From: a virus
Virus record (IMG/VR): IMGVR_UViG_3300025120_014979
Span: 1-23,717 of that record
Reading direction: 5' to 3' (one strand)
DNA length: 23,717 nucleotides
Part shown: one piece after another, positions 12,107 to 23,137 of the stretch
Layout: each line of letters begins with the position of its first letter
Numbering within the stretch: the first letter of the stretch is position 1
Made by a program: the position numbers and the translations under genes
The notes under the pieces: model-generated
What the model saw: the letters and a program-made list of their open reading frames with translations, nothing else
Database searches by the model: none
Told to the model about the DNA's origin: nothing

Positions 12107-12865
12107 TTATACCTTTAATGCCATATCCCATATAAGCAAATGAAGCCTAGGAGAAAAATTAACATTCATTGCCTTAGCATATTCAGCTACAGCAGGAGCT
12201 CTTTCTATATGCTCTGCCCTACTACCACTACAAGGCATAAACCATATTCTATTTTTAGGTAAATTAATATCACCATCATCAACATACTTACGCCAGATTT
12301 CATCTATATCTTCAGAAGCGTTAATAACAAACTTAAATCCTGAACCAACATCCTTATGCCATTTTAATACTTCAGGTTTATAAGTCTTCTTCTCAGGATC
12401 TCCATTAGTAGTTAACTTAGGTGAAGTAGTAAAAGTAGCTCTATAATATTCAATCCATTTTTCATCAGGCTTAATAGTAGCATTAGTTTCAAAATCAATT
12501 AAAGGATGAAAATCATACTTATTAATAAACTCTGCCATAAACTTAAGCAGCTGCTTTTGCTGTACCATAGGTTCTCCACCAGTTAACTTAAAAATAGCAC
12601 CAGCTTTCAATTTATCTACTAATTTATGCTCTTCAAAATATTCGAATATTTCATTAAAGGTCATCTTATTCTTGACAGACCATGAAACAAAGGAATCACA
12701 ACCATGAGGAGAATCTTCAGATGCAAAACCTTCACAAGTTAGGTTACACATTGACATTCTAAAAAATACTGAAGGCATACCTACAAATTCACCTTCTCCC
12801 TCAAGAGTATAGAAAGCCTTATCATCAGATACTAACAATGTTTCTTTATTACAATCTACAGACAT
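12107..12865 (-). CDS. queE: 7-carboxy-7-deazaguanine synthase, phage-type QueE
   Basis: The product is 252 residues. It opens with the QueE-type segment F-Y-T-L-E-G-E-G-E-F-V-G-M-P, which binds substrate, then F-F-R-M-S-M-C40-N-L-T-C44, and later H-G-C56-D-S. The glycine-rich SAM motif L-T-G-G-E-P-M-V-Q-Q is intact. QueE is a radical SAM enzyme that turns 6-carboxytetrahydropterin into 7-carboxy-7-deazaguanine, the third step towards preQ0. The cysteine spacing is C-x3-C-x11-C rather than the canonical C-x3-C-x2-C. Partners QueD and FolE2 are encoded nearby. A sigma-70-like promoter sits directly upstream, divergent from phoH. In phages this pathway commonly serves DNA hypermodification, or queuosine in tRNA. 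Confidence 0.92.
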   Translation of the reverse strand: MSVDCNKETLLVSDDKAFYTLEGEGEFVGMPSVFFRMSMCNLTCEGFASEDSPHGCDSFVSWSVKNKMTFNEIFEYFEEHKLVDKLKAGAIFKLTGGEPMVQQKQLLKFMAEFINKYDFHPLIDFETNATIKPDEKWIEYYRATFTTSPKLTTNGDPEKKTYKPEVLKWHKDVGSGFKFVINASEDIDEIWRKYVDDGDINLPKNRIWFMPCSGSRAEHIERAPAVAEYAKAMNVNFSPRLHLLIWDMALKV

Positions 12866-13644: not shown

Positions 13645-14334
13645 CTATTTATTACCCCATGAAGTGCCTGCAAAAGGATCACTGAAGTTACCTTGAGTCT
13701 TATTTGGACCTACGTGAGCAGCCTTCGGATTTGAAGTTGGTTTAGTATCCTCTTGCTGAGTATCTTCTTGCTGAGTATTTTCTGTTACAGGAATCCTACC
13801 TTTTTCTGACCACTCTTTCCAAGTTTTTTCAAACTCTTCATGAGATACGTAAGTTGTTGTACCTTCTTCGTCTTTAAATACTGTATTCTCTTTAACAGGT
13901 CGACTTACACTTGCATAGTTATTACTATGCTCGAATACAGTTACATTTTCAACCCATACTCTTCCATCAGTAGACTCATCAATGTAAGTATCGGCTGTCT
14001 TATATACCCACTCAGCAAACTTTTCAATACCAACACCACCTTCCATAATTCTAACATCTGCAGCCCCAACTTCACCTAGAGCAATAAATTTATCTCTATG
14101 AATATCATTACCTGAAATTACTAATGTATGATCAAATTGATTATTAAAAATATTTTTAAGTTCTTTTAAACCGCCGAAATCATAAACCCAGTTATTACTA
14201 TCTAACTCTTTACAACCAAAAGTTATTTCCGCATTAAGCTGATATCCATGTACAAACTTACAATGCGAATCAGCATTGGGTTGACGAAAGGCAGTTGATC
14301 CAAGTTCAATTCTTTTTGAAGACGTATAAATCAT
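13645..14334 (-). CDS. queD: QueD-like 6-carboxytetrahydropterin synthase with C-terminal tail
   Basis: The product is 229 residues. Residues 1-145 are a 6-pyruvoyl-tetrahydropterin-synthase fold: S-H24-C25-K-F-V-H29-G-Y, W-V-Y-D-F-G-G-L-K (49-57), F-D68-H69-T and F-E135-H, which supply the catalytic Cys, Asp-His pair and Glu. Two of the three zinc histidines of E. coli QueD are replaced (A-F16-R for A-H-R, and H-G-Y31 for H-G-H), a pattern I associate with a divergent phage/alphaproteobacterial subgroup. QueD makes 6-carboxy-5,6,7,8-tetrahydropterin from dihydroneopterin triphosphate. Residues about 181-229 form a low-complexity tail with a T-Q-Q-E-D repeat, not part of the fold. A sigma-70-like promoter abuts the start. 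Confidence 0.88.
   Translation of the reverse strand: MIYTSSKRIELGSTAFRQPNADSHCKFVHGYQLNAEITFGCKELDSNNWVYDFGGLKELKNIFNNQFDHTLVISGNDIHRDKFIALGEVGAADVRIMEGGVGIEKFAEWVYKTADTYIDESTDGRVWVENVTVFEHSNNYASVSRPVKENTVFKDEEGTTTYVSHEEFEKTWKEWSEKGRIPVTENTQQEDTQQEDTKPTSNPKAAHVGPNKTQGNFSDPFAGTSWGNK
13744..13773. repeat. Two tandem 15-base units in the queD tail
   Basis: AGTATCCTCTTGCTG (13744-13758) is followed directly by AGTATCTTCTTGCTG (13759-13773), differing at one base. On the coding strand they give the doubled pentapeptide T-Q-Q-E-D in the disordered tail of the QueD-like protein. The next bases (AGTATTTT) begin like a third, decayed unit. Confidence 0.9.
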
Positions 14335-15653: not shown

Positions 15654-16703
15654 ATGAGTAAAGGTAAAGAAGATTCTAATTATGAGTGGTTAGGTGAAGA
15701 TGATGAGCTAACTGGTGAAAAGGATATTGTTGCAAAGGAACTTATGGGTGATGAATATAGTAAGAGTTATTTTCCTCCTATTCGCGTTTATGATAATAAA
15801 GTTAACGCTAGTAAGAAATATATCTCTTCATTACCTGATCTTCAAAATGGTCCTTCGAGTTTAATTCAAGGAGCTGCTGTACCTATTCAGCAAGTTGGTA
15901 TTCATAATTTTAAACTTCCTCTAACTTATAAGAAGCGTAATGGTAAAACTATTGAGCTTGAAACTAGTGTTACTGGTAGTGTGAGTTTAGAGGCTCATAA
16001 GAAAGGTATTAATATGTCTCGTATTATGAGAAGCTTTTACGATCATAAAGACGAGACGTTTAGTATTGATAAGATTAAAGATGTATTAGAGACTTACAAG
16101 AATAATCTTAAATGCTTTGATTCAAGAATAATGCTTAAGATTTCATATCCTATTAAGCAGAATAGTTTACGTAGTGGTCTAGAAGGTTATCAATATTATG
16201 ATGTAGTATTTGAAGGTGACTTAACTAAAGAAGGTGAGTTTAAAAAGTATATTCATTTTGACTTTGTTTATTCTTCTGCTTGTCCTTGTAGTTTTGAGCT
16301 AAGTGAGCATGCTGAAAAGTATCGTAATAGAGCTACTGTACCTCATAGTCAACGAAGTGTTGCTCGAGTAAGTGTTAGATTTGAAGATATGCTTTGGATT
16401 GAAGATATTCAAGAGTTGTGTTTAGAAGCTTTACAAACTGAAACGCAAGTTATGGTTAAAAGAGAAGATGAGCAAGCATTTGCTGAGAAGAATGGTGCTT
16501 ACTTAAAGTTTGTTGAAGATGCTGTTAGATTACTCTATGAGCAGTTTACTAATGAATCACGTATATTAGACTTTAAGATTGTAGCATCTCATAATGAAAG
16601 CTTGCATAGTCATAACGCTGTATCAGTTATTGTAAAAGGTGTTGAAGGAGGCTTTAAGGCTGGTGTTACTCGGGATGTTTTTGAATCTGCTGGATTAAGA
16701 TAA
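15654..16703 (+). CDS. folE2: GTP cyclohydrolase IB (FolE2)
   Basis: The product is 349 residues. From about residue 75 it follows the FolE2/MptA family: [10 protein letters not shown] (81-90), K-G-I-N-M-S-R (117-123), the catalytic S-A-C210-P-C212-S, P-H231-S-Q-R-S, and E-S-L-H-S-H-N-A (315-322). The enzyme opens GTP to 7,8-dihydroneopterin triphosphate, the first step of both folate and 7-deazaguanine synthesis. The first 70 residues are acidic and family-atypical, an N-terminal extension. With QueD and QueE nearby, its product most likely feeds the 7-deazaguanine route. It is on the plus strand, divergent from the gene at 15601 and followed after 21 bases by the DNA-glycosylase-like gene. 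Confidence 0.93.
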
Positions 16704-16724: not shown

Positions 16725-17255
16725 GTGAATATATTTGTAACAGATGACGATCCCGTATACTCTACTTTAAATCTTTGCGATCAACATGTAAGATCTAAGA
16801 TGCAGATTGAAGGAGCTATTATGCTAGCTCATGCTTTCCCTCAAGAGTTGTTAAATCATCCTTCTACGCCTAGAACATCAACTGGTAAACCTCGAAGAAG
16901 AGGTAAAGGTTATTTCAATCATCAATGCTCGATATGGGCTAGAGAAACTAAAGATAACTTTAAGTGGTTAGTTGATCATACGTTAGAGATGTTTACAGAG
17001 CGTATGTATAGGTGGCCTGATTCAAATGAACACTTTACAAAAACGTTTATTGAATGGTGCGGTAAAAATATTCATAATACTATTATGAGTAAGACCGGTC
17101 TAACAGAGTACGCTATAGCTATTAGTGATAGCTGTGATTGTAGAAAAGTAGAAGGTTTTGATGATCTTTCAACTATAGACAAATATAGAGAGTATATTCG
17201 TTGCGATAAACCTTTCGCTACTTGGACAGAGCGTTATATACCTGCTTGGTATTAA
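16725..17255 (+). CDS. Conserved phage protein, pyrimidine-dimer-glycosylase-like annotation
   Basis: The product is 176 residues and starts at a GTG. The N-terminus M-N-I-F-V-T-D-D-D-P, then L-C-D-Q-H-V, then a helix ending M-L-A-H-A-F, and the central N-H-Q-C-S-I-W-A-R-E, match a widespread marine phage family usually labelled pyrimidine dimer DNA glycosylase or left unnamed. I do not see the N-terminal catalytic Thr arrangement of T4 DenV, so the glycosylase label is uncertain. The gene follows folE2 in the same transcript. Its stop codon overlaps the stop of the convergent gene on the other strand within a shared TTAA. A role in DNA repair or base modification would suit the neighbourhood. 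Confidence 0.75.
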   Translation: MNIFVTDDDPVYSTLNLCDQHVRSKMQIEGAIMLAHAFPQELLNHPSTPRTSTGKPRRRGKGYFNHQCSIWARETKDNFKWLVDHTLEMFTERMYRWPDSNEHFTKTFIEWCGKNIHNTIMSKTGLTEYAIAISDSCDCRKVEGFDDLSTIDKYREYIRCDKPFATWTERYIPAWY

Positions 17256-17692
17256 ATTTTAGCTTCGACTTCTTTATGAGCAATGTTTTCTTGACTAACA
17301 TCAATTAAAGCATCAAGATCCTTTTCAATAAAGTCTTTACTAACTAATATCTTAAATAAGTTAGTTGTTCTATCTCCTATAGAGAATGGAATATTTCTAT
17401 ATTCTTTATTACCAATCTTAAGATCAAAATTTACCACTGGTCTATCTTCTGTATGACCTGCTCCAACGTTAATAGTAATATCGTCTACCTTATCTTTCAT
17501 TAGACGTTTATTGTTAACTGTCTTAAAGTGTACTTTATTACCTTGTACTTGGATATCTTCACCATGTATAACGTTAAATGCACCGTTACCAGAATCTAAT
17601 TTAGATGGAATCTTACCTATACCATCTACATCAAAAAATTCAATAAGACCTAATACAGCCTTTTCAGCAAAGAACTGTTTAAACTTCTTCAT
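17252..17692 (-). CDS. RimB-like retropepsin-type protease with capsid-targeting-like N-terminus
   Basis: From the ATG at 17692 the product is 146 residues; the longer reading frame needs a TTG at 17728. It begins M-K-K-F-K-Q-F-F-A-E10. The rest resembles the retropepsin-like RimB/ATP-dependent zinc-protease family: I-P-S-K-L-D33-S-G35 (the D-[ST]-G catalytic motif), R-P-V-V-N-F-D-L (84-91), and D-R-T-T-N-L-F-K-I-L-V-S-K-D-F, which matches the family's final D-R-x-N-x5-L-x-G-R segment. Such proteins are single-domain aspartic proteases that would act as dimers. If the first ten residues are cleaved, the protease domain begins at the cut. The gene ends the minus-strand late-type operon and overlaps the gene before it by 14 bases. 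Confidence 0.8.
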   Translation of the reverse strand: MKKFKQFFAEKAVLGLIEFFDVDGIGKIPSKLDSGNGAFNVIHGEDIQVQGNKVHFKTVNNKRLMKDKVDDITINVGAGHTEDRPVVNFDLKIGNKEYRNIPFSIGDRTTNLFKILVSKDFIEKDLDALIDVSQENIAHKEVEAKI

Positions 17693-18047
17693 ACCCTTTA
17701 TTAAAATTACCTTGTTCAGGTTTAACAACTATAGCTATTTGTTGTTCACTGTGATTATGACCTTTTTCGTTCATCTCGTAATCAAGATAATGGAATACTG
17801 ATGAGAGATAATCTGAAGCTTTAGTTATCTTTGAAGCTACCCAGCCTTCTAAACCAGGAAGCTCTTGTACCATCATACTTAATTTTTCAGCATATTCTTT
17901 TGCCTTGAGAAGATCTCTACCAGCCATATCAATTTCTGATTGATCATTCTCACCCATACAACTAGAGCATTGACAGTCAGATCCATGACCAACATTCATA
18001 TATGCAGCTTCCATTAAAGCTATTTCTTTACGCTTCTGATCTCTCAT
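17679..18047 (-). CDS. Conserved-looking phage protein with Cys cluster
   Basis: The product is 122 residues. Near the N-terminus is H-G-S-D-C-Q-C-S-S-C (about 21-30), a C-x-C-x2-C cluster that could bind a metal. The second half contains L-P-G-L-E-G-W-V-A-S-K-I-T-K-A-S-D-Y-L-S, a helix segment I recognise as recurring in T4-like marine phage proteins without a known function. The C-terminal tail is polar. A CATAAATA late-type octamer lies five bases before the ATG. It ends 14 bases inside the protease gene. I cannot assign a function. Confidence 0.8.
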   Translation of the reverse strand: MRDQKRKEIALMEAAYMNVGHGSDCQCSSCMGENDQSEIDMAGRDLLKAKEYAEKLSMMVQELPGLEGWVASKITKASDYLSSVFHYLDYEMNEKGHNHSEQQIAIVVKPEQGNFNKGYEEV

Positions 18048-18052
18048 ATTAA

Positions 18053-18060
18053 TATTTATG
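18053..18060 (-). promoter_or_regulatory. Late-promoter-like octamer (CATAAATA)
   Basis: CATAAATA on the minus strand lies exactly five bases before the ATG at 18047. If the octamer spans -13 to -6 as in T4, transcription would begin at the A of the start codon. The same octamer and spacing occur at 23130-23137. Confidence 0.4.
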
Positions 18061-18718
18061 CAAGTATGTTTTTTATTCGCTCTTTATCATCTGATGAAAC
18101 TTCTTCTGGAACGAAATAGTTTAAAGCTTTATCTATATCCTTACTAATTAATTCACGTGTTTGACTTCCGGAAATACCACCTTCTTGCATAGGTATCTTC
18201 ACTACATTAACTAATGGATACTTATCAATATTATTAGTAAAGTAAGCATAACGCTTTACATCTTCATCTTTAGCACCTGCACCTACGGATAAAGTTTTAT
18301 CTAAATTATCATCTGCAAATTCATATACTGCTCTTACTGGATTAGGTACATATACAACACTTACAGGTTTACCTAGGTAATTAGAATATATGTTCCATAT
18401 TTTTTCTGATTGCTCAGGTGTTATACCATCTCTCTCTTTACCACCTATAAAAACAACTCCCTTATCTGCATCTTCTAGTAAATATCTTAAAGCATTAAAG
18501 TGACCTTTAGTAGGAGGTTTAAACCCTCCAGGTAGAAGAGCTACTTTTTCTGAAGTAGATTCTGCATTTTCACTTTTAGAAGCTCTTAATTTGTTTCCTG
18601 CTTTTTTAGCTGCTTTATACGCTTTACTACCTTTACGTGCACTCTTTCCACCACGCTTTTTCTTTGCGTTAATGTTTGCCCATAGACTTTCTGTATAATA
18701 TTGTTTGAAATTTTTCAT
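18056..18718 (-). CDS. Cytidylyltransferase-fold nucleotidyltransferase with basic linker and capsid-targeting-like N-terminus
   Basis: The product is 220 residues in three parts. Residues 1-10 are M-K-N-F-K-Q-Y-Y-T-E. Residues about 19-48 are strongly basic (K-K-K-R-G-G-K-S-A-R-K-G-S-K), suggesting nucleic-acid binding. Residues about 58-220 are a nucleotidyltransferase of the NMNAT/PPAT-like superfamily: L-L-P-G-G-F-K-P-P-T70-K-G72-H73 replaces the usual H-x-G-H, and I182-S-G-S-Q-T-R188 is the C-terminal I-S-x-T-x2-R motif. The first motif histidine is Thr. Related phage proteins may make NAD or CDP-linked products, but the substrate is not clear. The gene overlaps the preceding one by four bases (ATGA). 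Confidence 0.85.
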   Translation of the reverse strand: MKNFKQYYTESLWANINAKKKRGGKSARKGSKAYKAAKKAGNKLRASKSENAESTSEKVALLPGGFKPPTKGHFNALRYLLEDADKGVVFIGGKERDGITPEQSEKIWNIYSNYLGKPVSVVYVPNPVRAVYEFADDNLDKTLSVGAGAKDEDVKRYAYFTNNIDKYPLVNVVKIPMQEGGISGSQTRELISKDIDKALNYFVPEEVSSDDKERIKNILA

Positions 18719-19218
18719 TTATCTTCCTCCATACTATCTGGATACCAATCAGGTAAAGGTGCTTTTTGTATTCTATTAGCATATTCCTTTTTAGCTTCTT
18801 CAAAATCTGTTGGAACTTTACCATCTACCATATCTTTAACAAATCCTAAAGTAGCAGCATTAGCGTATAAGTCACCACATCTTGCAGTTACTTCTTTTTT
18901 AAGACCATCATATATAATACTACCGGTTACATGACCTAAAGTATCTAACATATCAGCTGGTACATCTATATTCATAGTTGAATATACATAATCTCTATGC
19001 GATGCAGGAAATTCATGAGGTATACTCTCATCTTTGATATATACAGACTCAAATGGAGGTTCAATATTATTCCAAAGCAACATATTTTCTGTTACTTCAT
19101 CAGGTTCACCAAATTGCTTTATAAGTTTTATTGCATAATCTCTAGCATCATCATGCTCCCAACCTTTAAGAGATTCAACAGCTTTATTTTCTTCAAAAAA
19201 CTCTAAAAACGTCCTCAT
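18715..19218 (-). CDS. Unknown protein with capsid-targeting-like N-terminus
   Basis: The product is 167 residues beginning M-R-T-F-L-E-F-F-E-E10, followed by an acidic/aromatic soluble domain with L-K-G-W-E-H-D-D-A-R-D-Y-A and A-S-H-R-D-Y-V-Y-S. There is no membrane segment or recognised catalytic motif. Four-base ATGA overlaps link it to both neighbours, so it is part of one transcript with the nucleotidyltransferase and the gene ending at 19215. It is likely a virion-associated protein if the N-terminal peptide is a real targeting signal; the activity of the main domain is unknown. Confidence 0.78.
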   Translation of the reverse strand: MRTFLEFFEENKAVESLKGWEHDDARDYAIKLIKQFGEPDEVTENMLLWNNIEPPFESVYIKDESIPHEFPASHRDYVYSTMNIDVPADMLDTLGHVTGSIIYDGLKKEVTARCGDLYANAATLGFVKDMVDGKVPTDFEEAKKEYANRIQKAPLPDWYPDSMEEDK

Positions 19219-19649
19219 GGTCTATTCGATCTTATAATATTTATTCCGTCAGGTTCAACAAAAAACACCTGCATATCACCAAACTCTTCTCCAGTAAAAC
19301 CAGCTCTTGGCAAGAACAACATAAAGTCTTTTAACTCACCAGTCCCAATATCAATTGCAATATCCCTATACTGATCACCGCTTTCAGCAACAGCTGCAGC
19401 TATTTGCTTAAGGGCTTCAGGGTCATCAACAGTATAATAAGACTCCTTACCGTCTGCAGTTGGATCTATACCTTCAATGTTGACATCAAAAAGACTTTCA
19501 CCGGATCTATATATTAACGGTGCAATTTTTTTACTATTAAGTTCGCTAACGAAGTCTATAGGAGAGAGATAATTGTTTTGTATATCTTGATACTCCTCAA
19601 ACGCAGCTTCATCTATGTTTTCAGTAAAATATTGTTTAAATGTTTTCAT
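19215..19649 (-). CDS. Unknown protein with the clearest capsid-targeting-like N-terminus
   Basis: The product is 144 residues beginning M-K-T-F-K-Q-Y-F-T-E10-N. This is the closest of the set to the T4 internal-protein leader M-K-T-Y-Q-E-F-I-A-E. The remaining 134 residues are acidic and soluble, with D-I-A-I-D-I-G-T-G-E-L and a beta-rich C-terminal part. I recognise no family. The start overlaps the stop of the KxDG-containing gene by one base (TAATG) and its stop overlaps the next start (ATGA). Confidence 0.78.
   Translation of the reverse strand: MKTFKQYFTENIDEAAFEEYQDIQNNYLSPIDFVSELNSKKIAPLIYRSGESLFDVNIEGIDPTADGKESYYTVDDPEALKQIAAAVAESGDQYRDIAIDIGTGELKDFMLFLPRAGFTGEEFGDMQVFFVEPDGINIIRSNRP
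19238..19245 (-). promoter_or_regulatory. Late-promoter-like octamer (AATAAATA)
   Basis: AATAAATA on the minus strand, 19 bases before the ATG at 19218 and inside the end of the upstream gene. It fits the NATAAATA late consensus described for cyanophages, but a single match in AT-rich DNA is weak. Confidence 0.3.
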
Positions 19650-20860
19650 TACTTAGAACTTGTTTGACCTCCACTAAAATTAGCACGGCTAAACTCTAAT
19701 CTATCTACTAATTTAACTGCATCACCAGCTTTAGATACACTTACATAACCTTCAGGAGACGTTACCTTTAACGTACCGTCCTCTGCGTCTAAGAAGTGCT
19801 TCGTGTTATACACAGCGTTATTATATTTGTTTACAAATATTTGCTTAGCTTGTGAGAGTAACTTACTAACTTTAAAGATGTTTACTATATCATCTTTTTG
19901 CTCCTTAAACTCAGCCATTTTCTTCTTAAAACTCTCTTCAACTTTAAGTTTACCAGCTTTTGATTTACGTTTATCAATCTCTTTTGCCATTCTTCCGGTA
20001 AACCAATCAACAAAGTTATTAAATGAATCTTCAGGATCTTCTAAGAACTTACCTTTTTGAATTTCAGAGTTAGCATAAATGTTAAGTAAATCTAAAGGAA
20101 GGTCTCTATAATCAACTTTAATTGAATCAGCAGTTTTAACAAAATCTCTCACTTGTTTAGCTTCATCTGTTGTAAGAGTAACTGTTCCTGTAGTGTCGGA
20201 AAATACAGCATCATCAACCCATACACCAGGAACCTTCTTAAGACCCTTAACGTTAATACCATACTGTGGAGGACTATCTAAATCTGCATATCCTGTATGG
20301 AATATAATACCAAATACTGAATTAGCTATTTCTTTACCTAACTTAGAGTCCTTTTCTACAGCATACTTAATTGTGTTTGGTTTAAAGGTAAAATGTTTTA
20401 CTCCATCAATAATTTCTTCGTTTACCGATGATGAATCAAACATGAAATCACCTTGAAGTACTCCTTTGATACCAAGCTTTGGAAGATACTTAAGAGCTTT
20501 CTTTAATTTATCAGCTAAACCTGGTGCATGTCCATGGTTCATCTCTACATCATTATCAGTATAGTTAATCTTTGGACCAGTTTTATTAAAGACCGATTTA
20601 GTACCTACAAAAAACTTACCAGTATCAGGATGCTTACCTACAAACATAGCAGGTGCACCATCCCATTTTACAGTAGTATTAACTTTCCTTTTACTCTTAC
20701 CTTGTAAATGAGATAATAAGTCAGTTATAAATCCTCTAGCTGTCTTATAACCAGCTTCACCCTTAGTAAGTACCAGCTCTTCTAAATGAGTAAGGTGGGT
20801 ATTAGCCTTAGCTTCAGTTAAGAGCTCGTATTGTTCAAAATATAATTTAAATGTTTTCAT
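19649..20860 (-). CDS. DUF6267-type phage protein with ligase-like KxDG motif
   Basis: The product is 403 residues from the ATG at 20860, which I prefer to the ATG at 20899 because it begins the leader M-K-T-F-K-L-Y-F-E-Q and follows the upstream stop with a short overlap. A second potential cleavage site, L-L-T-E16-A, follows. Residues 62-92 contain T-V-K65-W-D-G68-A-P-A-M-F-V-G-K and then F-F-V-G-T-K, resembling motif I of the ATP-dependent ligase/mRNA-capping superfamily. V-L-Q-G-D-F (134-139) could be a motif III-like strand, and F-G-I-I-F-H-T-G-Y follows at 183-191. I cannot find a convincing motif IV, so ligase activity is only a hypothesis. The sequence pattern matches a recurrent marine phage family of unknown function. 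Confidence 0.82.
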   Translation of the reverse strand: MKTFKLYFEQYELLTEAKANTHLTHLEELVLTKGEAGYKTARGFITDLLSHLQGKSKRKVNTTVKWDGAPAMFVGKHPDTGKFFVGTKSVFNKTGPKINYTDNDVEMNHGHAPGLADKLKKALKYLPKLGIKGVLQGDFMFDSSSVNEEIIDGVKHFTFKPNTIKYAVEKDSKLGKEIANSVFGIIFHTGYADLDSPPQYGINVKGLKKVPGVWVDDAVFSDTTGTVTLTTDEAKQVRDFVKTADSIKVDYRDLPLDLLNIYANSEIQKGKFLEDPEDSFNNFVDWFTGRMAKEIDKRKSKAGKLKVEESFKKKMAEFKEQKDDIVNIFKVSKLLSQAKQIFVNKYNNAVYNTKHFLDAEDGTLKVTSPEGYVSVSKAGDAVKLVDRLEFSRANFSGGQTSSK

Positions 20861-22208
20861 ATTCTTCATCTTGTTCAGGCCCATATGGTGAGAATGCATA
20901 TGTGTAATCTCTATTACCAGCTGGACCAGATTTTATAATTGATGGTAAGCTTCTCTTTGCTCTAACGTTTAGTAATTGGTCTCCCGACTTTACTACAGCA
21001 ATTCCACCTCTACCAGGGTTAGTAGTATTGATAGCAAGTAAAATATCCCATTCACCTTCACCAGATTTTTTACTTAGCTTATAATTATCAAACAAGCTCT
21101 TTATATAATCTTTTGTAAACCCACCTAAACTTTTTGCATTTATTGAATTAACTAGTTCATTAATAATATTACCATCAGTAAAAAATTCCTCAAATAATTC
21201 TTTAGGAAGATTATTTTCGTAACCACTCGGTAATTTTAGATTACCGTTTTTCTCATTTTTATCTAAGATTTTCATTAAATACCACAGTCCTTCGATATTT
21301 AGAGTAGCTTGACCTGGCCTAGAATTATGAACATTCTCGTTAGCAGCATCTTTAAGCTTTTGATTCCAATTCTCACCTAGATATTTTTTAAATATACTGT
21401 TTATTTTTCCTGAAGTAGGATTTTTGCTTTCTAATCCTATACGTCCATCTCCTTCTTTAAGTTCAACCAAGTTTCCAGCTATATTAATATCACCCTTACC
21501 TTCTTGCGAAATGCTAGGAGATAGAGCAGCAAGTGCTGCTTCACCAGGACCAGCTTGCTTTCCACCAGTACCTACTTTTTTAGCAGCAATATACGCTTTA
21601 AGCCCTTCATCTGTAAAAATATCTCTATAAGAAAATACTTGACCATCAGATGCATTTAAAATTTTATCTACATTTATAGCTGTACCGTCTTTAATTTGAC
21701 CGTATAAAGCTTTCATATCATCTGAAGTAATGTCATCAGATACTATTAACGCTTCAATAAATTCATCTTCAAGCTTTGGTGATATTCCGGATAGACCACC
21801 TTTAAAAAGTTCTTTAAAGTTCTTTTGAGTATCTTTCTTACCCAACAATCTATTGATTCTATGCTTTACTTCAGGTTGTAAAGAATTTATTTCCTCTAAA
21901 TCATCCGCGGTAAAAGTAAAATCAGCCTTACTACCAGTTGGAGCATCAACAAATTTAGTTTCTGGTTTAAATTTTGGATCATCAACTATATCATACACTG
22001 GTTGACCATCACTATCTACTACAGACTTACCGTCGGCATCTTTCTTTTGAATTTTTTTCTTACCTCTTCCACCACCTTTATCTTTTCCTGATGCATAAGT
22101 GAGACCAAATTCCCCTTGCTCGTTTTCACCTAATATATTTAAATGTTTACGAGGAGGTATATTACCGTTAACTTGCTCTCTATAAATTCTTTCTAGCGAC
22201 CATTGCAT
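20847..22208 (-). CDS. Phage protein with PD-(D/E)XK nuclease-like motif
   Basis: The product is 453 residues. Residues 30-90 are a low-complexity Gly/Lys/Asp linker. The central part has G-P-G-E223-A-A-L, then K-G-D240-I-N-I-A-G-N-L-V-E249-L-K251 and G-R-I-G. The order E, D, (8 residues), E-x-K is the restriction-endonuclease-like PD-(D/E)XK core. The C-terminal third contains W-D-I-L-L-A-I-N and G-R-G-G-I-A-V-V-K, plausible further core strands. It begins M-Q-W-S-L-E-R and lacks the capsid-targeting-like leader of its neighbours. It could be a virion nuclease or a structural relative that lost activity. It overlaps the KxDG gene by 14 bases. Confidence 0.8.
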   Translation of the reverse strand: MQWSLERIYREQVNGNIPPRKHLNILGENEQGEFGLTYASGKDKGGGRGKKKIQKKDADGKSVVDSDGQPVYDIVDDPKFKPETKFVDAPTGSKADFTFTADDLEEINSLQPEVKHRINRLLGKKDTQKNFKELFKGGLSGISPKLEDEFIEALIVSDDITSDDMKALYGQIKDGTAINVDKILNASDGQVFSYRDIFTDEGLKAYIAAKKVGTGGKQAGPGEAALAALSPSISQEGKGDINIAGNLVELKEGDGRIGLESKNPTSGKINSIFKKYLGENWNQKLKDAANENVHNSRPGQATLNIEGLWYLMKILDKNEKNGNLKLPSGYENNLPKELFEEFFTDGNIINELVNSINAKSLGGFTKDYIKSLFDNYKLSKKSGEGEWDILLAINTTNPGRGGIAVVKSGDQLLNVRAKRSLPSIIKSGPAGNRDYTYAFSPYGPEQDEEYENI

Positions 22209-22212
22209 AATA

Positions 22213-22758
22213 TTAATTTTCTAAAAGTTCATCTTCTAAGGGCTCATCAGTAAATTGAAGTAGTCTTGAAATAGTTTCAACTACTTTCATGGGTTCTGTT
22301 TCATTAAATTCATCATTAACTGCGCTAGCAATTTGTGCTTCTTGTGTCGTAGGCTTATATCTAAATGCATCAGCAAGTATCTGAGCTAAATATAGCTCTG
22401 ACTCAGGAGTAATGCCACCTAAACCAGGTCCTCTAGTATATACTGCTCTTAAAGCTACAGGCAACCTAATTACTACACTCTTAATTAGTGATCTTGGATT
22501 TGGATCTTCAGTTTTAGGAGCTATATTATGTGATCCTATTTCTTTTAATTCAAGTTTCTCAATATCATCAGCCTCATCATCAGTAGGCATAAACGCAAAA
22601 GCAGCTGCTATAAGTTCTGCCATAGCTTGTACACCGGGAGATGGAGCTTCTTCAGTTGTTTCTGCGTCAGTATCAGTTGTTTCAACCTCAGCAATATCTA
22701 CATCTTCCTCTTGTTCAAAAAGAGTCATAAGCTCTTCCATTATTTTTAAAGTTCTCAT
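22213..22758 (-). CDS. Acidic hypothetical protein
   Basis: The product is 181 residues. It begins M-R-T-L-K-I-M-E-E-L-M-T-L-F-E-Q, which partly resembles the targeting leaders of its neighbours. It is followed by a very acidic Glu/Asp/Thr stretch (about 17-40), then a mainly helical domain with G-V-Q-A-M-A-E-L-I and R-G-P-G-L-G-G-I-T-P-E-S-E-L-Y. No catalytic motif or membrane segment is evident. An internal ATG at residue 7 is an alternative start. The gene is four bases from the nuclease-like gene and shares the late-type operon. Confidence 0.75.
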   Translation of the reverse strand: MRTLKIMEELMTLFEQEEDVDIAEVETTDTDAETTEEAPSPGVQAMAELIAAAFAFMPTDDEADDIEKLELKEIGSHNIAPKTEDPNPRSLIKSVVIRLPVALRAVYTRGPGLGGITPESELYLAQILADAFRYKPTTQEAQIASAVNDEFNETEPMKVVETISRLLQFTDEPLEDELLEN

Positions 22759-22764
22759 TATTTT

Positions 22765-23124
22765 TTAGCTTTTAGCTGCTGTTTCCAATTTCTTAGCAAT
22801 TGCCAACGCAGCTGAAGACATTTTTCTCTTAGCCATTTGTAATTGTCTTTTAGTTTTACTTGTAAGCTGTCCTCCAAGAGATTGATCCGGTAAGCTTGCT
22901 ATAGCATTTATAGCCTCAACTGAATTTTTAAAGTCTTCATTATCCTCAACCCTTAAATGTCCTCCACTTTCTTCAGCAAATTTTAAGAAGTTTTCATATG
23001 AAGAACCTACATCGTTAGGTAACGTAACTGTTGCCATTAAATTACCGTCTTTGTCTTTATATTCTACAGTAAAAGGTCCTTCTCCTGGTTTGTTCTCTTC
23101 TATCAACTTCAGAAACTTGCTCAT
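22765..23124 (-). CDS. Small unknown protein with capsid-targeting-like N-terminus and basic C-terminus
   Basis: The product is 119 residues. It begins M-S-K-F-L-K-L-I-E-E10-N, with I-E-E at the position of the T4 I-A-E cleavage site. A beta-type middle (V-E-Y-K-D-K-D-G-N-L) is followed by an Ala/Lys-rich C-terminal helix, K-T-K-R-Q-L-Q-M-A-K-R-K. A basic helical tail would suit contact with packaged DNA. Two late-type octamers lie upstream, one of them an exact TATAAATA. Confidence 0.78.
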   Translation of the reverse strand: MSKFLKLIEENKPGEGPFTVEYKDKDGNLMATVTLPNDVGSSYENFLKFAEESGGHLRVEDNEDFKNSVEAINAIASLPDQSLGGQLTSKTKRQLQMAKRKMSSAALAIAKKLETAAKS

Positions 23125-23129
23125 GTATA

Positions 23130-23137
23130 TATTTATG
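23130..23137 (-). promoter_or_regulatory. Late-promoter-like octamer (CATAAATA)
   Basis: CATAAATA on the minus strand ends five bases before the ATG at 23124, the same octamer and spacing as at 18053-18060. It overlaps the stop codon of the upstream gene. Confidence 0.4.

Follow-up and report, generated by a model that had tools for sequence, protein, structure and literature searches.

Six unrelated phage proteins share a ten-residue start that probably serves as a T4-type capsid-targeting sequence

The window analysed here is a 23,717-base fragment of a marine T4-like phage (IMG/VR virus record IMGVR_UViG_3300025120_014979), with 32 called genes and no close match among annotated phage records. 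Since Megablast gave no match for the region among phage records, the analysis relied on protein searches and on IMG/VR contigs. Six genes on the minus strand start with the same kind of decapeptide, M-[KRS]-x-F-x-x-[FYL]-[FYI]-x-[E/Q], hereafter the leader, and the protein bodies behind it are unrelated. The original prediction had placed these starts at 17692, 18718, 19218, 19649, 20860 and 23124, and all six hold. Two lie as internal ATGs within somewhat longer open reading frames (ORFs; 17728 TTG and 20899 ATG), and in relatives the leader ATG is the start used for these genes. The six leaders are very probably capsid-targeting sequences (CTSs) of the type known from phage T4, directing proteins to the head, where they would be trimmed by the head protease and from which they would be delivered with the DNA.

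Phe4 is found in all six leaders, as is F, Y or L at residue 7. Five end in hydrophobic-x-Glu10 with F, Y or I at residue 8, as had been claimed; the sixth (start 20860) has Y-F-E9 and then Gln10. Pairs of leaders share two to seven of the nine residues at positions 2–10 and mostly none or one of ten at positions 11–20 (once three), and the likeness ends at residue 10. At the DNA level, identity over codons 2–10 ranges from 37 to 81%. The earlier statement that the codons differ is borne out by pairs at 37–60% and overstated for the single pair at 81%, a value that leaves room for a copied 5′ segment. Adjacent genes with start/stop overlap would also suit a recently copied cassette, made of the start region and first codons and kept for efficient translation, whose peptide has no role. 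Such an origin is highly improbable: the other pairs keep the key residues at just 37–60% DNA identity, the same peptide pattern recurs in T4 and in cyanophage S-CREM2, and conservation is by residue class. The peptide pattern outlasts the codons.

Frequencies were counted with a fixed ten-residue pattern, M..[FY]..φφ followed by E. or.E (φ, hydrophobic), since φ-x-E anywhere in residues 6–30 has little diagnostic value by itself: outside the cluster, 389 of 669 genes in relatives contain it. The fixed pattern opens 6/32 called genes of the window; it starts at 5/5188 internal Met residues (binomial 7e-13 for the 6/32), and relatives have it at 6/1326 N-termini outside the cluster (binomial 7e-9, likewise). 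Five relatives with the full cluster have it in 26/65 cluster genes versus 3/669 elsewhere, the former being homologues and not independent. In AT-rich phages many N-termini are short, hydrophobic and rich in lysine, and single matches are scattered outside the cluster, so that short N-termini might be alike by chance. The probability of this is close to nil, because ∼0.03 (internal-Met background) or 0.14 (N-terminal background) pattern starts are expected in the window against six observed, and all six fall in one gene run.

The closest precedent is found in T4. Its internal proteins ipII and ipIII start MKTYQEFIAE, as the original prediction stated, and ipI starts MKTFKEFTSTTTPVSTITEA. The window leaders align without gaps to the IPII/IPIII sequence, including residues 4 and 7, which target the protein, and residues 8 and 10, which govern processing (PMC9026906). 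Both systems present a ten-residue N-terminal M-K-x-aromatic-x-x-hydrophobic-hydrophobic-x-E on otherwise unrelated proteins, and relatives of the window encode a gp21-type protease. They differ in that the window cargo includes probable enzymes (NMNAT-like, retropepsin-like) within a single gene run, in that residue 8 is mostly F/Y and not L/I, and in that Glu9 can replace Glu10; in the window, moreover, packaging and cutting are predicted from sequence. Among the 267 called T4 genes the pattern matches only ipII, ipIII and 61.1 and is thus specific there. Gene 61.1 (L191:18966-19130; 54 residues, annotated as hypothetical only) has the CTS-like start MKTFKEFIKED. Two further systems are comparable. 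T4 Alt, a packaged ADP-ribosyltransferase starting MELITE, is likewise an enzyme with a short propeptide that is packaged and delivered; its leader lacks the M-K-x-F form, and no ADP-ribosyltransferase is recognized among the window cargo. Ejection proteins of the SPN3US/phiKZ type also carry N-terminal propeptides cleaved after Glu by the prohead protease, but these are mostly >100 residues long and share no common ten-residue tag (PMC5694885).

The protein behind leader 5 belongs to DUF6267 (324.6 bits against PF19782, cut-off 27). As in T4 ipI, a predicted gp21-type cut site lies a few residues beyond the leader, just before the domain; all 49 aligned DUF6267 proteins keep its Glu16, although residues 1–15 vary among them. 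Every distinct N-terminus listed has L/I-x-E 0–3 residues ahead of the conserved K(A)NTHL; one exception was met in S-SZBM1_141, which begins directly, and leaderless, with MAKNTHL. Two branches, ∼40% identical, can be told apart by their long (MKTFKLYFEQYELLTE/AKANTHL) or short (MELLNE/DKNTHL) starts, slashes here and below marking predicted cuts; the short start, of pelagiphage type, is close to that of Alt. The structure model is good over most of the domain, residues 1–21 being of low confidence. K65-W-D-G68 is invariant among the aligned proteins. Of a covalent nucleotidyltransferase/ligase the protein shows the K-x-D-G sequence motif only; no PDB match was obtained by sequence or by fold search of the model. 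No mention of DUF6267 was found in the literature searched.

Scans with two of the proteins gave >100 related loci, and ten larger contigs were searched for head genes: a gp21-type protease is present in eight and a gp23-type capsid protein in seven. Stripped of their leaders, the bodies behind such starts in relatives form 14 clusters, one of them UvsY-like and several others single cases that are possibly chance; the largest joins DUF6267 and NMNAT-like proteins because some contigs encode both as one fused protein. Bodies are exchanged behind the leader between phages. The UvsY-like neighbour, which starts MELLKKYIEE, was set aside as a leader bearer, the match being loose. On a protein with the segments ICYHVSDLNL and LHVGP, which we take to recall ADP-ribosyltransferases, the leader is MKTFKEYFED (L080:4932). 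Homologues of leader 1 read MKTFLQYIQE, MKSFKEYIVE and MNTFKQFFIE, and φ-x-E at residue 9/10 is kept in 26 of the 28 distinct N-termini listed; in leader 3, F4, E6, F8 and E10 are invariant across seven homologues. In NMNAT homologues Glu9 is mostly present and residue 10 varies (D, Q, G, S); cleavage there may thus follow residue 9. The Q10 and D10 variants could mean that the proteins enter the head and retain the leader as a permanent scaffold or DNA-binding anchor, given that Asp10 in the T4 CTS permits targeting and blocks processing (PMC9026906). Retention is nonetheless unlikely, as most distinct N-termini in the five leader families examined keep φ-x-E and relatives encode the gp21-type protease.

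Published virion proteomes of cyanophages bear on packaging most directly. In S-CREM2, a related phage, 52 of 217 proteins were detected in virions by mass spectrometry (PMC10665884). The original prediction would be weakened by a motif equally common in non-virion genes; with annotated starts and the strict pattern M[KRQSN].[FYL]..[FYLI][FYLIV].E, the leader is found on 5/52 virion proteins versus 1/165 others (one-sided Fisher p=0.0033; p=0.003-0.012 over three pattern variants), so that five of six leader-bearing proteins are in the virion. They are ORF6, a SAM hydrolase (MKDFDSFLEE), ORF13 (MKDLHSFLTE), ORF14, an APH kinase (MKRFDAFLTE), ORF136 (MQTFSMFFSE) and ORF154, a cytidylyltransferase (MKNFSSFLTE). 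Just three S-SCSM1 starts match, those of the virion NMNAT (MKSFLQFLKE), of ORF30 and of a recombinase. The S-SZBM1 virion cytidylyltransferase starts MRFRQFIIE, a form one residue shorter, and the leaderless DUF6267 protein encoded next to it is not on the published virion list. The window's NMNAT-like protein would fall in the same cytidylyltransferase superfamily as these enzymes; the cyanophage members are found in purified virions and, like it, bear leaders, but the available parts of the three papers name no targeting signal (PMC10665884, PMC9602691, PMC9146016). Similarity of the window enzyme to S-CREM2 ORF154 is remote (E=0.003), whereas the cytidylyltransferase at the corresponding position in a related contig (L051; leader MKSFKEYFTE, directly after the DUF6267 gene) is clearly homologous to ORF154 (E=2e-33); leadered nucleotidyltransferases of two further contigs (L075 and L078) are homologous to virion ORF156 of S-CREM2 (E down to 5e-38).

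The leader might instead be a short amphipathic docking helix that binds proteins together or to membrane, replisome or tail. Positions 4, 7 and 8 fit one helix face, the DUF6267 model shows a short helix at residues 4–10, and the UvsY-like protein, unexpected in heads, starts loosely alike. A docking role is quite improbable, since it gives no reason for Glu9/10 to be conserved and Glu16 to be invariant before DUF6267, for the likeness to end sharply at residue 10, or for the virion association in S-CREM2.

Head targeting by a T4-type leader thus accounts best for the six starts. The proteins, made late, would dock to the prohead's scaffold core through their aromatic or hydrophobic residues 4, 7 and 8. 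A gp21-type protease, which in T4 cleaves after L/I-x-E (PMC9026906), would then cut after Glu9 or Glu10 and, in the DUF6267 protein, also or instead after Glu16. The bodies would be freed in the head, stay with the DNA and be delivered at infection. The tag is portable: unrelated bodies (the retropepsin-like protease, the NMNAT-like enzyme, DUF6267 and others) stand behind it and are swapped between phages. Packaging of leadered proteins is well supported by inference; for these six we infer docking, cutting and packaging, and delivery into the host is less certain. Less certain too, although the most plausible roles, are NAD supply by the NMNAT-like enzyme and action of the protease on host or defence proteins. 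The original prediction of a portable T4-type leader marking head-loaded proteins finds support in the match to mapped T4 positions (PMC9026906), the specificity of the pattern in T4, body exchange, gp21 and gp23 in most larger relatives and late-type promoter sites, and its strongest support in the S-CREM2, S-SCSM1 and S-SZBM1 virion proteomes, with their leadered NMNAT-type proteins.

Several observations weigh against this interpretation. Residue 8 (P3) is F or Y in five of the six leaders, not L/I as in the T4 consensus; leader 6 (I8) and the second DUF6267 site (L-T-E16) alone have L/I at P3. Glu9-Asp10 is frequent among NMNAT homologues; since Asp10 blocks processing in T4 (PMC9026906), part of the cargo may escape cleavage or be cleaved one residue further upstream. 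HTVC008M has one match and G003 none, both being more distant from the window. The window's 23.7 kb hold no head genes, and the phage's own protease and capsid protein are not seen in this fragment; PF03420 gave no match in it, but the controls gave none either. The proteome evidence comes from cyanophages, not from this phage or its close relatives. Only 5/52 S-CREM2 virion proteins are tagged, S-SCSM1 ORF30 is tagged (MKTFKQFMSE) yet not annotated as a virion protein, and the S-CREM2 authors concede CsCl contamination as a possible source of enzymes (PMC10665884).

The features of the gene run, whose genes are adjacent with start/stop overlap, are listed in the table. The protein behind leader 1 has a conserved K-L-D-S-G with the catalytic D-S-G; it matches PF05618 at E=9e-5 (22.8 bits, cut-off 27) and NCBIfam RloA at E=9e-7, also below cut-off, and its homologue in L094 passes the Pfam cut-off with 28.9 bits. 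That behind leader 2 is 35% identical to a Flavobacterium phage NMNAT (E=5e-21), matches cytidylyltransferase/NMNAT profiles weakly and below cut-off, and has the (H/T)xGH motif as TKGH. Its basic LWANINAKKKRGGKSARKGSKAYKAAKKAGNKLRASK module (LWANINAK), inserted after the leader, is absent from the G001 homologue (MKTFKEYFEDQESTSEKVALLPGG) and follows similar leaders on other proteins. The 167-residue protein has no match in Pfam, PHROG or NCBIfam, and its structure model is of low confidence, too poor for a fold search. The 144-residue protein is otherwise seen in only one near-identical contig, and the bodies of the 119-residue protein diverge widely among relatives. Defence-system profiles matched none of six cluster proteins.

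Table. Leaders, cargo and neighbouring features of the gene run
Feature	Position	Strand	Remarks
Leader 1 MKKFKQFFAE	17663..17692	-	predicted cut after E10
Leader 2 MKNFKQYYTE	18689..18718	-	predicted cut after E10
Leader 3 MRTFLEFFEE	19189..19218	-	
Leader 4 MKTFKQYFTE	19620..19649	-	
Leader 5 MKTFKLYFEQYELLTE	20813..20860	-	CTS-like start (MKTFKLYFEQ) and second gp21-type site LLTE16/A just before domain
Leader 6 MSKFLKLIEE	23095..23124	-	
Retropepsin-like aspartic peptidase (PF05618/RloA-like, below curated cut-offs)	17252..17692	-	behind leader 1
NMNAT/cytidylyltransferase-like protein (PPTKGH)	18056..18718	-	behind leader 2
Basic LWANINAKKKRGGKSARKGSKAYKAAKKAGNKLRASK module	18572..18688	-	between leader 2 and NMNAT-like enzyme
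167-residue protein, unassigned family	18715..19218	-	behind leader 3
144-residue protein, unassigned family	19215..19649	-	behind leader 4
DUF6267 protein (PF19782) with K-x-D-G	19649..20860	-	behind leader 5
119-residue protein, unassigned family	22765..23124	-	behind leader 6
122-residue protein, start MRDQKRKEIALMEA (L-x-E/A)	17679..18047	-	same gene run
181-residue protein, start MRTLKIMEELMTLFEQ	22213..22758	-	without CTS-type F4 start; L-x-E near N-terminus
Conserved 28-residue N-terminus MQWSLERIYREQVNGNIPPRKHLNILGE of 453-residue protein	22125..22208	-	ends L-x-E
Late-promoter-like NATAAATAY (T4-type)	23129..23137	-	13 nt before 23124 start
Late-promoter-like NATAAATAY (T4-type)	18052..18060	-	13 nt before 18047 start

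In the family of the 453-residue protein (20850-22208), the 28-residue N-terminus is kept (MQWSLE.IY..QV.GNIPPRKHL..LGE) and the bodies in relatives are very different; it is possibly a second, longer type of leader ending in L-x-E. The NATAAATAY sites would point to late timing, as supporting evidence only; in G001 the same element precedes many genes at a similar distance, among them the one immediately following the capsid gene. Elsewhere in the window, genes at 12107-12865, 13645-14334 and 15654-16703 resemble what we take to be QueE, QueD and FolE2-type enzymes, presumably suggesting 7-deazaguanine DNA modification.

Two side observations concern virion proteins. S-CREM2 ORF12 (L276:7704-10313), a virion protein annotated as Cas9, has FASFMAE/A ∼20 residues in, which resembles a leader placed inwards by an N-terminal extension or by a wrongly called start. 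Certain small cluster proteins copy the N-terminal arm of the major capsid protein just past its predicted gp21 site: one in G001 (84090-84758; L141:4090-4758) with 49% identity over 63 columns (E=4e-13), S-CREM2 ORF160 (L275:8343-9236) with 75% over 24 residues (E=2e-11), and S-SCSM1 ORF97 (L280:38122-38307). The last two are virion proteins. These copies are possibly capsid-arm mimics.

The mechanism itself is already known from T4; what is new is the cargo set and the probable explanation of unexplained cyanophage virion enzymes, a link apparently not stated in the literature searched. It is rather likely that marine T4-like phages (Kyanoviridae and relatives) share a widespread, unrecognized CTS code and that this code defines an exchangeable module of packaged enzymes. 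Purified cyanophage virions repeatedly yielded NMNAT-type enzymes, and those of S-CREM2 also yielded a SAM hydrolase and a kinase (PMC10665884, PMC9602691, PMC9146016). If true, the code would explain these proteins, and the leader would give a specific, testable reason for the presence of enzymes that the S-CREM2 authors could not clear of contamination. The tag would then predict the injected enzymes of each phage from sequence, providing a rule to list which enzymes abundant marine phages may bring into the host at infection.

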